NCBI RefSeq assembly: GCF_001581925.1 | Contig: NZ_LQZA01000001.1 | Coordinates: 744,001-808,000 of the forward strand | DNA: 64,000 nucleotides | Direction of reading: 5' to 3' | Source of the DNA: Ferrovum sp. PN-J185 | GTDB taxonomy: Bacteria > Pseudomonadota > Gammaproteobacteria > Burkholderiales > Ferrovaceae | The notes under the pieces: model-generated | Seen by the model: the letters and a program-made list of their open reading frames with translations, nothing else | The model's database searches: none | What the model was told of the DNA's origin: nothing | Shown: in pieces, positions 23,936-29,921 of the stretch | How positions within the stretch are numbered: position 1 is the stretch's first letter | Layout: each line of letters opens with the position of its first letter | Program-made: the position numbers and the translations under genes

Positions 23936-24511
23936 ATGAACGTAATTCTTGCATCCTCTTCGCAGTATCGACGTCAACTATTAGAGCGGTTGCAAATATC
24001 GTTTACCACGCTTTCTCCTGAAATTGATGAAACACCCAGAAAAAATGAATCACCACAAATGATTGCTCAACGTCTTTCGATAGAAAAAGCATTAAGTATT
24101 GCTAAGTTGAATCCATCTGCAATTGTTATTGGATCGGATCAATGTGCTGATCTAAACGGACATATTGTTAACAAACCCCTAACCTATGATAAGGCTATGG
24201 AACAATTAAGAAACGCGAGTAATCATGAAATGATTTTTTATACAGGCTTGTCAGTTGTCCACATTGACAATAATCGACAATATAATTGTGTTGTTGAAAC
24301 GCGCGTGAAATATAAAAAACTTACTGAACAAATAATTAGTAGTTATTTAAATAAGGATAAGCCATTTGACTGTGCCGGGAGTGGAAAAATTGAGTCACTT
24401 GGTATCGCACTAGTTGAATGGGTTAAAAGTGATGATCCAAGCGCTCTTATTGGCTTACCATTAATTAAAACCGCGGAATACTTGCAGTTATGTGGTTATC
24501 CTCTGTTTTAA
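23936..24511 (+). CDS. Maf-family nucleotide pyrophosphatase
   Basis: 191-residue nucleoside triphosphate pyrophosphatase. It starts with the Maf motif LASSSQYRRQLLERL (5-19) and has the conserved SIEKA and VIGSDQ (about 64-69) and DCAGSGKIE segments. The YceF branch, hydrolysing m7GTP-like or UTP/dTTP-like nucleotides, is likely given the rpmF-yceD linkage. Its stop abuts the stop of the convergent miniprotein gene. Confidence 0.93.
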   Translation: MNVILASSSQYRRQLLERLQISFTTLSPEIDETPRKNESPQMIAQRLSIEKALSIAKLNPSAIVIGSDQCADLNGHIVNKPLTYDKAMEQLRNASNHEMIFYTGLSVVHIDNNRQYNCVVETRVKYKKLTEQIISSYLNKDKPFDCAGSGKIESLGIALVEWVKSDDPSALIGLPLIKTAEYLQLCGYPLF

Positions 24512-24637
24512 TTATTTTTTCACTTCTGTGGTTGTTGTGCTAGTTTGATCAGAATCATCCTCATCACTACGTTTACCTGTCATTGCGACAAAAATGATTG
24601 CACTGATAAAAACAATTGCTGTAAGAGTTTCTAACAT
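24512..24637 (-). CDS. Small single-pass membrane protein (41 aa), unknown
   Basis: Reads MLETLTAIVFISAIIFVAMT then a hydrophilic Asp/Ser/Thr-rich tail ending EVKK. Residues 5-20 form one membrane helix followed by a basic KR, so the tail is probably cytoplasmic. The start is well supported: AGGAGG at 24645-24650, seven bases from the ATG, is among the best ribosome sites in the window. It does not resemble a family I know. Its stop directly abuts maf, so it is convergent and has its own promoter in the 24638-24838 spacer. Confidence 0.65.
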   Translation of the reverse strand: MLETLTAIVFISAIIFVAMTGKRSDEDDSDQTSTTTTEVKK

Positions 24638-24838
24638 ATTGGTACCTCCTCCAAGTTGACGAATGTTTTTATTATTGTTTTTTGATTGTTACATAAATGG
24701 TTAGAAAAAATAAGTAAAAAACTTATATTTATTACAAGTTTTTCTTATGATTTGTAGTTGAGTTAAAGGGAAAAAATTGGTGCGGCGCAATACAGCTTTA
24801 TTGATTTAAATTAATTAATAGATATCTATCTGAATAAA

Positions 24839-25555
24839 ATGGAAAAAAAAGCTCAACTATACTTAATACCCGTACCCATTACTGAAGAAGAAATGATATG
24901 TACGCATACAATAACCACACTAAGTAAACTTAACCATATTAATTTTTTTGTTGTAGAAAACGCTAAAGTTGCAAGAAAGCATCTCAAACACTTTGCAATT
25001 GAAAGACCTCTTTCTACTCTAGTAATCAATGAAATTAACGCTGAAACTGAAAACCGTGTGCTAGAAGAGTTGTTAAAACCCATTGAAAAGGATAACCAAT
25101 CAATTGCGCTGATGTCTGATGCAGGCTGCCCTGCTATTGCTGACCCTGGTGCTAAATTAGTAGCCATAGCACATAAAAAAGGAATCGAGGTAGTACCCCT
25201 AATCGGTCCTTCTTCTATACTTTTAGCATTGATGGCAAGCGGGTTAAATGGTCAACGTTTTTCCTTCAATGGATACTTAGCTATTAAGGAAATTGAACGT
25301 ATTCAGCAGATTAAAAGCCTAGAAAAACGATCGAAACAAAATAATGAAACTCAAATTTGTATTGAAACACCCTACCGCAACCAGCAATTATTTGTAGCAT
25401 TAATTAATCATCTACAACAGGATACGTTACTTACAGTAGCATTAGATTTAACAGCTGAAAATCAATTCATAAAAACCAAAACGGTAAGGGAATGGCGTCA
25501 AGATGAGAAAGTTCTTGAAAAAAAACCAGCTATTTATCTATTTCTATCTCAATGA
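24839..25555 (+). CDS. SAM-dependent methyltransferase, tetrapyrrole methylase/RsmI family
   Basis: 238-residue protein with the TP-methylase fold. It has the SDAGCPAIADPG (about 88-99) and GPSSILLALMASG (about 122-134) motifs shared with RsmI, plus ETPYRNQQL. It is shorter than RsmI and its N-terminus lacks the typical GNLGD start, so it belongs to the RsmI-related group found beside maf in betaproteobacteria. rRNA methylation is possible but not shown. No clear SD precedes the ATG. Confidence 0.85.
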   Translation: MEKKAQLYLIPVPITEEEMICTHTITTLSKLNHINFFVVENAKVARKHLKHFAIERPLSTLVINEINAETENRVLEELLKPIEKDNQSIALMSDAGCPAIADPGAKLVAIAHKKGIEVVPLIGPSSILLALMASGLNGQRFSFNGYLAIKEIERIQQIKSLEKRSKQNNETQICIETPYRNQQLFVALINHLQQDTLLTVALDLTAENQFIKTKTVREWRQDEKVLEKKPAIYLFLSQ

Positions 25556-25588: not shown

Positions 25589-28500
25589 ATGTGGATAGTT
25601 AGACTTGCGTTAAGACGCCCCTACACGTTTATTGTACTTGCAATCCTAATTGTATTTTTAGGTACAACGTCAATAAAAAACACTCCAACAGATATCTTTC
25701 CCAATATAGATATACCTGTGGTCAGTGTGATATGGACATACAGCGGCTTGCCTCCTAAGCAAATGGAGAAATACATCACTACTTTTAGTGAGTATTCTCT
25801 TTCAGCCGGTGTCAATGACGTCCGCGCGATAGAGTCGCAAACATTAAATGGTGTCAACTCAATAAAGATCTTTTTTCAACCGAATGTCAAAATTGCAGAA
25901 GCAGTTGCACAGGTTGTTTCTATTTCACAAACTATTATTAGACGAATGCCTCAAGGAACTGTTCCGCCACTTATCTTAAGATATGAAGCGTCCAGTGTTC
26001 CTGTTTTACAACTTGCTTTATCAAGTAGTAAATTAAATGAATCACAACTGTATGACTTTGGTATTTATCGAGTTCGTACAGCAATTGCTCCTGTAAAAGG
26101 AACTCGTCTACCCCTACCCTATGGTGGTAAGCCCAGACAAATCCAAGTCGATTTAGACCCAGCAGCCATGATGGCAAAAGGGATTACTGCCAACGACATA
26201 AATAATACATTTACAAATCAAAACCTTAGTCTCCCTACTGGTGACGCTAAGATTGGTTCAACGGACTATGTGGTGGCGATGAACATGAACCCCAATAACA
26301 TAGATTCCATGAATAATTTACCCATTAAAAAGGTTAACGGTAATTGGGTTTATGTAAGAGATGTAGCTCATGTTAGAGATGGTTTCGGGGTACAGACTAA
26401 TATTGTTAGAACAAATGGGGAGCGAGGCGCACTTCTTACCATTTTAAAAACGGGTCAAGCTTCTACATTAGATGTAGTCAATGGTATTAAAGAGCTCATT
26501 CCTGGTTTAAAAAAACAATATCCCGATATTCATATAGAAGAGCTATTTGATCAATCCATTTTTGTAAAAGCAGCTATAAAAGGCGTATTGGTTGAAGGGT
26601 TGACTGCTGCATTATTAACAGCTGGGATGATTTTATTATTTTTAGGTAGTCTTCGCAGTACATTTATTGTAGTTATATCAATACCCTTATCAATTTTATC
26701 CTCATTGATTATCTTGTATCTTACCGGAGAAACGCTGAATATTATGACGCTTGGCGGCTTGGCGCTTGCGGTAGGAATATTAGTTGATGATGCAACAGTA
26801 GAAATTGAAAATATTCACCGTAACGCACAATTAGGGTTACCTATTGAAGAAACAATATTACTAGGTGCCTCTCAAATTTTTGTTCCTACTTTTGTTTCTA
26901 CTCTGTCAATTTGCGTTGTATTTGTATCCGTGGTTTTCTTAAATGGCCCACCAAGATACCTATTTACTCCGTTAGCTCTAGCAGTGGTTTACGCTATGAT
27001 GGCCTCATGGGTACTATCAAGAACGCTAGTTCCTGTTATGGTTAAGTATTTATTGCCAAACGAACTGCACGGACCGCATGGTTCAACCATCCATCAAATT
27101 TTTGAAAAAAACTTTGAGGCGTTTAGACAAAAATATATAGGAGTTCTTGAGTTATGTTTAAATCACAAGAAAAATGTTTTGGTAACAAGTGCTTTTATTG
27201 TTACTTGTACAGTTATTCTACTGCCCTTTATTGGTAGAGATTTTTTTCCAGTTGTTGATGCTGGACAAATTCGTATGCATGTCAATGCACCAGCAGGATT
27301 GAGGCTTGAAGAGACAGAGCAGGTCTATGCTAATGTTGAGAGAAAAATTAAAGAAATAATTTCTCCTCATGATTTGAATTTAATTTTAGATAATATTGGT
27401 ATCCCACAATCAGTCAATTTAGCGTTTACGGATACCCCTACTATCAGTTCTAATGATGGAGAGATCTTAATCTCTCTCAAATCGGACCATAAGACAGCTA
27501 CTCCAGATTATGTGAGGACATTAAGACAAGAGCTACCTAGACTTTTTCCTGGTATTACTTTCTTTTTTCAGCCAGCAGACATTGTCAGTCAAATTTTAAA
27601 CTTTGGTATACCCGCCCCAATAGATGTTCAAATTGCAGGGTTTAATCCAAAGATTCCAGCAATTGCTGATGATTTACAACGACAGATTGCTTTAATACCT
27701 GGAGCTGTAGACGTACATCGTTTCCAAGTTAGTAACGCTCCACAGATTAACTTAGATGTTGATCGAAATCGTGCGGCTGATTTAGGGATGACGGAACACG
27801 ATGTGGCTAACAATGTATTAATTGGGCTTAGTTCAAGTTCCACTATAAGTTACAATCTGTGGCCTGATCCTCGTTCTGGTGTTGGTTATCCTATAGCCAT
27901 TCAAACGCCTCAAGCTAAAATTTCAACATTGAATCAGTTAATGGCTATTAATTTGCCTGGTAAAGGTAACGCGCAATATGAACCCTTGGCAAACGTAGCA
28001 ACATTTAAACGTTCCCAATCTCCTTTAGTTGTAAGTCATTATGATATTCAACCTGTATTTGATATTTACGCTAATGTGGAGGATCAAGATTTAGGTAGTG
28101 TATCAAGTAAAATTTCAACAATTATTCAACAAATTTCTCCAACATTGCCACCAGGGACTCGTTTGGTTATGCGTGGTCAGGTGGAGAGTATGAGTCAATC
28201 CTATGTTCGACTAGGCATAGGTATTATTGTTGCTGCACTGGTTGTCTATTTTCTAATGGTGGTTAATTTTCAGTCATGGACTGACCCTTTTATTATTATT
28301 ACAGCACTACCTGGCGCAATTTGCGGTGTTATTTGGATTTTGTATACCACGAATACCCCATTTAGTGTTCCAGCTTTAATGGGGGCAATTATGAGTCTTG
28401 GTGTGGCTACTGCAAATAGTATTCTTGTTGTGACATTTGCTAACGACCGATTACGCACTGGAATTACTCCATTCCAGGCTGCATTAGAGGCAGGATTTAC

Positions 28501-28744
28501 TCGATTAAGACCGGTGGTTATGACAGCATCAGCTATGCTAATTGGTATGATTCCAATGGCTTTGGGACTAGGTGAAGGAGGTGAACAAAACGCACCTTTA
28601 GGACGTGCTGTGATAGGTGGTTTAATACTAGCTACTATTTCTACTCTAATTTTTGTACCTGTTGTATTTGCTTGGTTGAAATCACTAATGATCAAGCGTG
28701 GTTATCAGTTTAATGATGCAACTATGCATCATGAGGCAATTTAA
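25589..28744 (+). CDS. RND-family efflux permease (AcrB/HAE1-like)
   Basis: 1051-residue inner-membrane proton-driven pump with the 12-TM, two-repeat architecture and two large periplasmic loops. TM4 keeps the proton-relay pair D400/D401 (GILVDDATVEIEN). In TM10 the segment GVATANSILVVTFAN has Ala where AcrB has the relay Lys940, so it belongs to a different subgroup. The GFTRLRPVVMTA segment keeps the conserved Arg. The adaptor gene follows, with SD at the stop codon; no TolC-type gene is beside it. Confidence 0.93.
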   Translation: MWIVRLALRRPYTFIVLAILIVFLGTTSIKNTPTDIFPNIDIPVVSVIWTYSGLPPKQMEKYITTFSEYSLSAGVNDVRAIESQTLNGVNSIKIFFQPNVKIAEAVAQVVSISQTIIRRMPQGTVPPLILRYEASSVPVLQLALSSSKLNESQLYDFGIYRVRTAIAPVKGTRLPLPYGGKPRQIQVDLDPAAMMAKGITANDINNTFTNQNLSLPTGDAKIGSTDYVVAMNMNPNNIDSMNNLPIKKVNGNWVYVRDVAHVRDGFGVQTNIVRTNGERGALLTILKTGQASTLDVVNGIKELIPGLKKQYPDIHIEELFDQSIFVKAAIKGVLVEGLTAALLTAGMILLFLGSLRSTFIVVISIPLSILSSLIILYLTGETLNIMTLGGLALAVGILVDDATVEIENIHRNAQLGLPIEETILLGASQIFVPTFVSTLSICVVFVSVVFLNGPPRYLFTPLALAVVYAMMASWVLSRTLVPVMVKYLLPNELHGPHGSTIHQIFEKNFEAFRQKYIGVLELCLNHKKNVLVTSAFIVTCTVILLPFIGRDFFPVVDAGQIRMHVNAPAGLRLEETEQVYANVERKIKEIISPHDLNLILDNIGIPQSVNLAFTDTPTISSNDGEILISLKSDHKTATPDYVRTLRQELPRLFPGITFFFQPADIVSQILNFGIPAPIDVQIAGFNPKIPAIADDLQRQIALIPGAVDVHRFQVSNAPQINLDVDRNRAADLGMTEHDVANNVLIGLSSSSTISYNLWPDPRSGVGYPIAIQTPQAKISTLNQLMAINLPGKGNAQYEPLANVATFKRSQSPLVVSHYDIQPVFDIYANVEDQDLGSVSSKISTIIQQISPTLPPGTRLVMRGQVESMSQSYVRLGIGIIVAALVVYFLMVVNFQSWTDPFIIITALPGAICGVIWILYTTNTPFSVPALMGAIMSLGVATANSILVVTFANDRLRTGITPFQAALEAGFTRLRPVVMTASAMLIGMIPMALGLGEGGEQNAPLGRAVIGGLILATISTLIFVPVVFAWLKSLMIKRGYQFNDATMHHEAI

Positions 28745-28754
28745 GGACTATTTT

Positions 28755-29921
28755 ATGGTTAATCATTTCTTAATTCGTTTATTTAATCGTCTTTTTAAAG
28801 CCAGTAAACCGATTTTAATAATTGCTAGTATTTTTCTAGTATTGATTGTTGTTGGTTTAGTCAATCGATTTGGTTTGTTGCATGCCGCCCCAAGACCTAA
28901 AGTGGCTCCTTCCCCCTCTGTGCTTGTGGCTGCTGCTAAGGAAGAAAATCCTCAGCAAGAAATGGTGTTACCAGGTACGCTGCAACCCTTAAGAGAAACA
29001 ACAATTTATTCACAATCAACAGGTTATGTGACTAATTGGTTGGTAGATATTGGTGCTAAGGTAAAAGAAGGAGATTTGTTAGCCATCGTCGATAGTCCAG
29101 ATGTTGATCAACAATTAGCCCATGCTAAAGCCACATTAGCCGCAGCCAAAGCCAACTTACAAATTGCTACAACTACATATAATCGTTACTTTCAACTGCT
29201 GGATAAGCAATATGTATCAAAACAACTGGTTGACGAACAACTTGCTACAAAATTAGCCAGGGAGGCGGAGGTTAGTGCTGATCTAGCTGATGTCAAACGT
29301 TTGGAAGAGTTACAAGCATTTGAAAGAGTGCGTGCGCCATTTTCTGGAATAATTACATTCAGAAATGTGGAAAAAGGACAGCTGGTTTCTCCGGTGACTT
29401 CAAATAGTAATGGCTGGCTGTTTAAACTATCGGCTACTGATCCTTTAAGGCTTTTTATAACCGTACCGCAAAACCAAGCATCATTTATCCACGATGGTGC
29501 TGATGTCAAAATTAGCTTGCCTGAGCAACCTAATAAGAGTTTTATAGGAAAAATTGTACGCAATGCTGGCGCTCTTGATGAAGCATCCAAAACCTTGCTT
29601 ACAGAAATTCAAGTACCTAACGCAAATCATGAGTTACCTACAGGAGGATATGTTGAAGCGCATATCGAGGTACATATAGATCATCCTGCCCTGTTAGTGA
29701 GTTCCAGTGCTTTAATAGTTAACGCTAAAGGTCAACAGTTGGCAGTTGTAGATAAGTCTCAACATATTCATTTGATACCAGTTAAAGTGGGGAATGACTT
29801 TGGCACCCAACTTGAAATCGTATCTGGCATACATCAGGGAGACTTAGTAGTACAAAATCCATCGGATTCAGTTTTTGATGGTGCGAGTGTCATACCCGTA
29901 ATGGCTAATAATAGTCATTAA
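28755..29921 (+). CDS. RND periplasmic adaptor (membrane fusion protein)
   Basis: 388-residue partner of the preceding permease. N-terminal TM (about 15-37), lipoyl-like region LPGTLQPLRETTIYSQSTGYV, a short helical hairpin rich in Ala and Lys, then a beta-barrel and membrane-proximal domain. I chose the ATG at 28755 because AAGGA at 28743-28747 lies just upstream; the longer frame from 28698 overlaps the permease. Order permease-then-adaptor is reversed from the common one. Its end overlaps the convergent phosphatase by 17 bases. Confidence 0.92.
   Translation: MVNHFLIRLFNRLFKASKPILIIASIFLVLIVVGLVNRFGLLHAAPRPKVAPSPSVLVAAAKEENPQQEMVLPGTLQPLRETTIYSQSTGYVTNWLVDIGAKVKEGDLLAIVDSPDVDQQLAHAKATLAAAKANLQIATTTYNRYFQLLDKQYVSKQLVDEQLATKLAREAEVSADLADVKRLEELQAFERVRAPFSGIITFRNVEKGQLVSPVTSNSNGWLFKLSATDPLRLFITVPQNQASFIHDGADVKISLPEQPNKSFIGKIVRNAGALDEASKTLLTEIQVPNANHELPTGGYVEAHIEVHIDHPALLVSSSALIVNAKGQQLAVVDKSQHIHLIPVKVGNDFGTQLEIVSGIHQGDLVVQNPSDSVFDGASVIPVMANNSH

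Follow-up and report, generated by a model that had tools for sequence, protein, structure and literature searches.

A 41-residue open reading frame (ORF) of Ferrovum sp. PN-J185 is, as judged by the substitutions among its orthologues, a real gene under purifying selection, and its product founds an unnamed family within a kind already known, the small single-helix membrane proteins. In the family alignment the helix is the conserved part, and the tail appears dispensable, being missing from some relatives. The gene stands alone, in surroundings that change from genus to genus. We propose, at a probability of about one half, that the protein may be a helix-only accessory subunit or modulator whose helix would pack on a larger inner-membrane complex encoded elsewhere. 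A second form of 20–21 residues, which looks leaderless, is the more surprising part of the finding.

The family is new and without an entry in Pfam or NCBIfam; its proteins are very small, and its hosts are acid-water iron oxidisers that are hard to grow and that draw interest for their membranes and electron chains. Should the partner be a respiratory or transport complex, the family would name a missing part of that complex. Our searches of the open-access literature found no Ferrovum work on small membrane proteins, small proteins or leaderless genes, and nothing on leaderless small transmembrane proteins in betaproteobacteria.

The gene and its surroundings

The genome of PN-J185 (G000) has 1,889,241 bases in 6 contigs, and the window is the whole 64-kb stretch of it that was analysed. 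Together with G001, G002 and G003 it forms genus g1; f38 denotes another Burkholderiales family, with a single genus, and L numbers denote loci. The ORF lies on the minus strand at 24512–24637, with its stop codon at 24512–24514, and reads from its ATG as MLETLTAIVFISAIIFVAMTGKRSDEDDSDQTSTTTTEVKK. A Shine-Dalgarno sequence AGGAGG stands at 24645–24650 on the same strand, with 7 bases between motif and ATG, and GGAGG is found upstream of the start in all four g1 genomes. The maf gene (23936–24511, plus strand; Pfam Maf, 5.2e-46) converges on the ORF, such that the two stop codons occupy adjacent bases with zero gap. A preliminary description of this DNA had given the 41-residue frame, the perfect ribosome-binding site seven bases ahead of the start and the abutting, convergent maf, and all three are present exactly as it had them.

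On the other side, 201 bases away and divergent, lies a gene for a short RsmI-like TP_methylase (24839–25555, plus strand, from the ORF list, Pfam and NCBIfam), followed on the same strand by an RND permease (ACR_tran by Pfam, 25589–28744), considered below as a partner, and the membrane-fusion (HlyD-type) protein of the pump (Pfam, 28698–29921, start codon uncertain). A consensus scan of the minus strand of the 201-base gap found no sigma-70-like promoter, and promoter-like sites in the region are not in excess (8, against 7.4 ± 3.2 in shuffles). An Rfam search of the window returned three tRNAs and nothing else. The methylase has 238 aa, and its best NCBIfam match, RsmI TIGR00096, reaches 124 bits, below the cut-off of 167.9; it sits between the maf and RND genes in G001, G002 and G009, and adjoins the RND gene in G003.

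Evidence for coding

Three of the four genomes of the genus match the 41-aa protein, at E-values of about 9e-15 to 5e-21. The G003 copy, at the edge of contig C52, is cut short by the contig end after MLETLTAIVFIS, 12 identical residues; its methylase and RND neighbours are those of the rest of the genus, and maf is likewise broken by a contig end. The gene layout is identical in G001 and G002 (the fabG-fabD-fabH-plsX-rpmF region, a DUF177-type gene, maf convergent, methylase and RND genes divergent), the gene names there, rpmF included, being carried over from the gene order of the window.

Over the first 24 codons of the three complete genus copies pN/pS is 0.056. The 39 pairwise differences in this core fall 6, 0 and 33 at codon positions 1, 2 and 3; by pair they number 13, 16 and 10, with 12, 13 and 8 at third positions, and the three comparisons share branches and so are not independent. 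The pair G000–G001 taken alone has 12 of its 13 differences at position 3 (binomial p 1.7e-5). More widely, pN/pS is 0.069 for the long form of Ferrovum and 0.198, 0.252 and 0.194 for other groups, the last value being that of the short form. The ORF could instead be a chance frame in the gap between maf and the methylase gene, and 41 codons are unremarkable on their own, with many such ORFs in the window; the orthologues, however, keep the frame, the Shine-Dalgarno sequence and the third-position bias. Given codon-position bias and pN/pS together, we dropped this reading as barely credible. As one half of what would refute it, the preliminary description had named a frame not conserved in close relatives; this half was passed, since conservation extends through the genus and past it.

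Searches of known families

Pfam gives no match to the 41-aa protein at E-values up to 1. Pfam holds models for AcrZ, CydX and KdpF; across the 23 family members that were aligned, none of the 11 Pfam families listed was matched significantly, and these three are absent from the 11. One member matches FixQ/CcoQ (PF05545) at E 0.22, which is not significant, and the other 22 do not match it at E up to 1. NCBIfam gave matches below cut-off only, chiefly to the lipoprotein Lp6.6 (NF033515), to which 12 of the 23 members show weak similarity (best E 0.00091); this assignment was rejected at 17.7 bits against a cut-off of 35, the window protein being without a cysteine. A profile search of the PDB gave only two matches, both at E 0.7 and signal-peptide-like (lipoprotein signal region). 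Calling the protein unrecognised, as had been done from the sequence, is thus fair at family level, no Pfam or NCBIfam family scoring above its curated cut-off.

Helix and tail

The predicted transmembrane helix comprises residues 2–22 (24572–24634, minus strand) and is placed by AlphaFold2, hydropathy and invariant residues in the 23 aligned rows. The best 17-residue Kyte-Doolittle mean is 2.38. AlphaFold2, given 11 aligned family members, models a single helix over residues 2–22, with block pLDDT of 93 and 91 over the helix and 56, 51 and 44 in the tail; model and hydropathy thus support the single transmembrane helix previously proposed. At 41 aa with this one helix, the protein falls within small single-helix membrane proteins, taken as those with a single hydrophobic helix and a length of up to about 50 residues. 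The 23 members share five invariant residues (M1, E3, F10, F16 and V17), all of them within the first 17, and the family signature is M[LI]ET...F...FV. The helix has no conserved face beyond chance: a moment as large as that observed arises in 26% of 5,000 shuffles, and an argument from a contact face is therefore unsupported.

The tail, residues 23–41 (24515–24571, minus strand), is variable and charged by alignment and composition, and predicted to be disordered by AlphaFold2. Counted over 20 residues, it holds 6 D/E, 4 K/R and 8 S/T in PN-J185. Through tail variation the members computed range from 36 aa to 74 aa in total length, and their tails from -4 to +2 in net charge (0 in G001, +2 in one f38 member); the 20-aa form has no tail. 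Because of this variation, the earlier wording of an acidic, threonine-rich tail describes PN-J185 and is not a trait of the family. Many members carry KR or similar charges just after the helix.

Distribution

A profile of the 23 members was run on 32 Ferrovaceae genomes, of which 25 match at E up to 10. Three matches were rejected on reading: in G006 and G008 the opposite strand carries a longer reading frame, and the match of G020 (E 0.458) has no start. A family member is thus counted in 22 of 32 genomes, by genus 4/4 in g1, 1/1 in g3, 8/8 in g4, 1/1 in g5, 4/5 in g7, 4/5 in g8, 0/5 in g2 and 0/3 in g6. Ten genomes lack a match, and the gene is accordingly not essential family-wide; these ten are 57 to 99% complete. 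One genome, G026, carries a second, divergent copy (L050), whose frame of 59 residues opens with GTG and which lies close to a gene resembling those of c-type cytochromes.

Family f38 has a member in seven of its nine genomes; one of its copies (L100, in G282) has an apparent ATT start, or is misassembled there, the rest of the frame being intact. The order was sampled with 300 genomes, 27 of which match at E up to 0.1. The 12 strong matches (E < 1e-6) are all in Ferrovaceae or f38, as are two further ones in Ferrovaceae, from G015 (short form) and G003 (the cut copy). The remaining 13, weak and outside both families (E 0.003–0.094, starting at profile positions 3–16), were left out of the count as a group. 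A sample of 369 genomes from the class gave G000 and one weak match, in G480 (E 0.008), rejected on reading: it lies in a frame of 257 codons and resembles the N-terminus of a lipoprotein. We thus found no convincing member outside Ferrovaceae and f38 in the 300 order and 369 class genomes sampled. Plasmids, phages and viral contigs contain no relative at the limits used; in one search 37 stretches fitted the pattern, and none was confirmed.

Genomic neighbourhoods

The gene adjoins maf in g1 and g3, and the methylase, RND and fusion-protein genes diverge beside it in G000, G001, G002, G003 and G009. Elsewhere the neighbours differ. At three of four g7 loci 13 bases separate its start from a preceding MarR-type gene, and it faces an AhpC/TSA-type gene (Pfam for L034 only), the arrangement at L035 being different; the 13-base spacing at these three loci, L034 among them, suggests co-transcription with the MarR-type gene. 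In f38 it faces mltA at all six loci read, with -1 to 5 bases between stops (Pfam for L097). The long form of g4 has other surroundings, in some cases with a divergent cupredoxin gene (Pfam for L038). Across the loci read we found no conserved operon or partner gene.

Stop-to-stop gaps with the unrelated convergent gene are 0–1 in g1, 8 in g3, -1 to 5 in f38, 5 in g5 and 3–4 in g8, and at the eight g4 short-form loci they are 1, 2 or 7 in three and 48–65 in five. We take such near-touching stops as compact packing rather than function. The idea that conserved neighbours next to maf and rpmF might reveal the function of the gene fails beyond two genera; since neighbours differ between genera, the maf/rpmF location gives no functional clue. 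What the preliminary description observed thus stands, and its interpretation is borne out in part, in the conservation of the frame and not in the neighbours.

Proposed role

The protein begins with MLET and ends in a short, variable, hydrophilic tail, and it presumably inserts into the inner membrane, which it would cross as a helix of residues 2–22. By the positive-inside rule, the charges that follow the helix in many members make N-out, C-in the likelier topology, with the tail most likely cytoplasmic. It most likely acts by helix-helix contact with a larger complex, in the manner of AcrZ, CydX and CcoM. From lineage to lineage the gene is found in different places and the helix is kept, a combination to be expected of a stand-alone subunit and not of part of one operon. 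The earlier suggestion of a regulator of larger membrane complexes is consistent with this anatomy.

The main rival, possible if unlikely, gives the protein a role in stress through a direct effect on the lipid bilayer (on its fluidity, proton leak or membrane potential), with no protein partner; in acid waters it could limit the entry of protons. The precedent is YohP, a helix-only, stress-linked membrane protein of 27 aa in Escherichia coli that has been reported to act on the bilayer (PMC12719787). The existence of a helix-only paralogue and the want of a conserved operon partner agree with such a role, as do the Ferrovaceae hosts, described as largely from acid waters (PMC13390463). The invariant E3, F10, F16 and V17, conserved across families, nevertheless exceed what a purely bilayer effect needs and, unlike the case of YohP, point to a specific contact. 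Nor is the match to habitat clean. The gene is missing from g2, which has photosynthetic reaction-centre genes in 4/5 genomes and whose probable identity is the lake genus Ca. Solisferrum, but it is missing as well from g6, which has the flagellar gene FlhA in 2/3 genomes. The other lake genus is reportedly without flagella; g6 is unlike it in this respect, and g3, which has no FlhA, resembles it and yet has the gene. A correlation of presence with extreme acidity, which we considered, is therefore not established.

Two more specific partners can be weighed against the unnamed complex that we prefer. A small terminal-oxidase subunit, such as CcoQ or CcoM of cbb3 or CydX of the bd oxidase, would have the same size and anatomy: CcoM is given as 36 aa (PMC10433244), and CydX is described as one helix with conservation limited to a few positions (PMC4325964), so that one helix, tens of residues and few conserved positions are common to all. 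Oxidases are predicted in the hosts, cbb3 and bo3 in all four of the 'Ferrovum' strains sequenced and bd in those of group 2, PN-J185 included, as reported in PMC4886054, and one member has the weak FixQ match. Against this stand the 22 members that do not match FixQ, the 41-aa protein's want of any Pfam match, a PDB search that returned just the two signal-peptide-like matches, and the loci read, in none of which the gene adjoins an oxidase operon; we hold this role to be rather improbable. AcrZ crosses the inner membrane with one helix, and its gene lies away from those of its complex. Our protein, also a small single helix, lies near an RND pump in two genera, where methylase, RND and fusion genes flank it in five genomes. 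It might modulate the divergently encoded pump as AcrZ, described as a small helix bound to AcrB (PMC7267776), does in E. coli. It differs from AcrZ in having no match to that or any such family in Pfam, and the pump neighbourhood does not extend beyond g1 and g3, with the gene or its short form lying away from this pump in g7, g4, g8 and f38, which makes this an outside chance. Size and hydrophobicity, above all of the 20-aa form, would also suit the small hydrophobic toxin of a type I toxin-antitoxin pair. We think that reading very unlikely, as the genus has a strong Shine-Dalgarno sequence and the short form a predicted leaderless start, rather than a repressed leader; most genomes have one copy, purifying selection is strong across genera, and plasmids, phages and viruses hold no relative at the limits used.

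The short form

A helix-only frame of 20–21 residues occurs in 13 Ferrovaceae genomes (eight of g4, one of g5, four of g8; loci L042, L044–L049 and L051–L056). Its pattern, MLET[IL]...[LI][LV]FL[AG]A[VI]AFV[ML]FT, is that of the helix and nothing more. The frame is convergent with smpB, in 12 of 13 cases read directly and in the 13th, G018, from coordinates; 26 of 29 smpB loci were read, L137, L146 and L147 not being caught by the pattern. With pN/pS of 0.194 and pairwise differences of 265, 112 and 656 at codon positions 1, 2 and 3, the short form is, by its substitutions, under coding selection. It is near the lower size limit for a conserved protein.

At 11 of the 13 loci the best promoter-like match is TTGAC[AGT], 17 or 18 bases and a -10-like box that ends 6 or 7 bases ahead of the ATG, from which a transcript start at or next to the ATG is predicted; these 11 short forms thus look leaderless. 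In a shuffle test nine of the 11 promoters were reached by at most 1 of 200 shuffles, and the other two by 19 and 25. If the prediction is true, the short form offers a natural test of the minimal functional membrane protein and of how such genes escape annotation.

Both forms of the same helix are present in most genomes of Ferrovum proper, the long one with a tail of 30–50 residues and the other of 20 residues. More speculatively, and with a low chance of being right, the bare 20-residue helix may be a complete, selected protein made without a ribosome-binding site. The two forms might then be rivals for a single site on a membrane complex, with the short form serving as a tail-less switch or antagonist. 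In g4, six of eight genomes have both forms, and G013 (73% complete) and G015 (99%) the short form only. Two loci depart from the promoter pattern: L042 has a weaker version of it, and the best match at L044 lies elsewhere.
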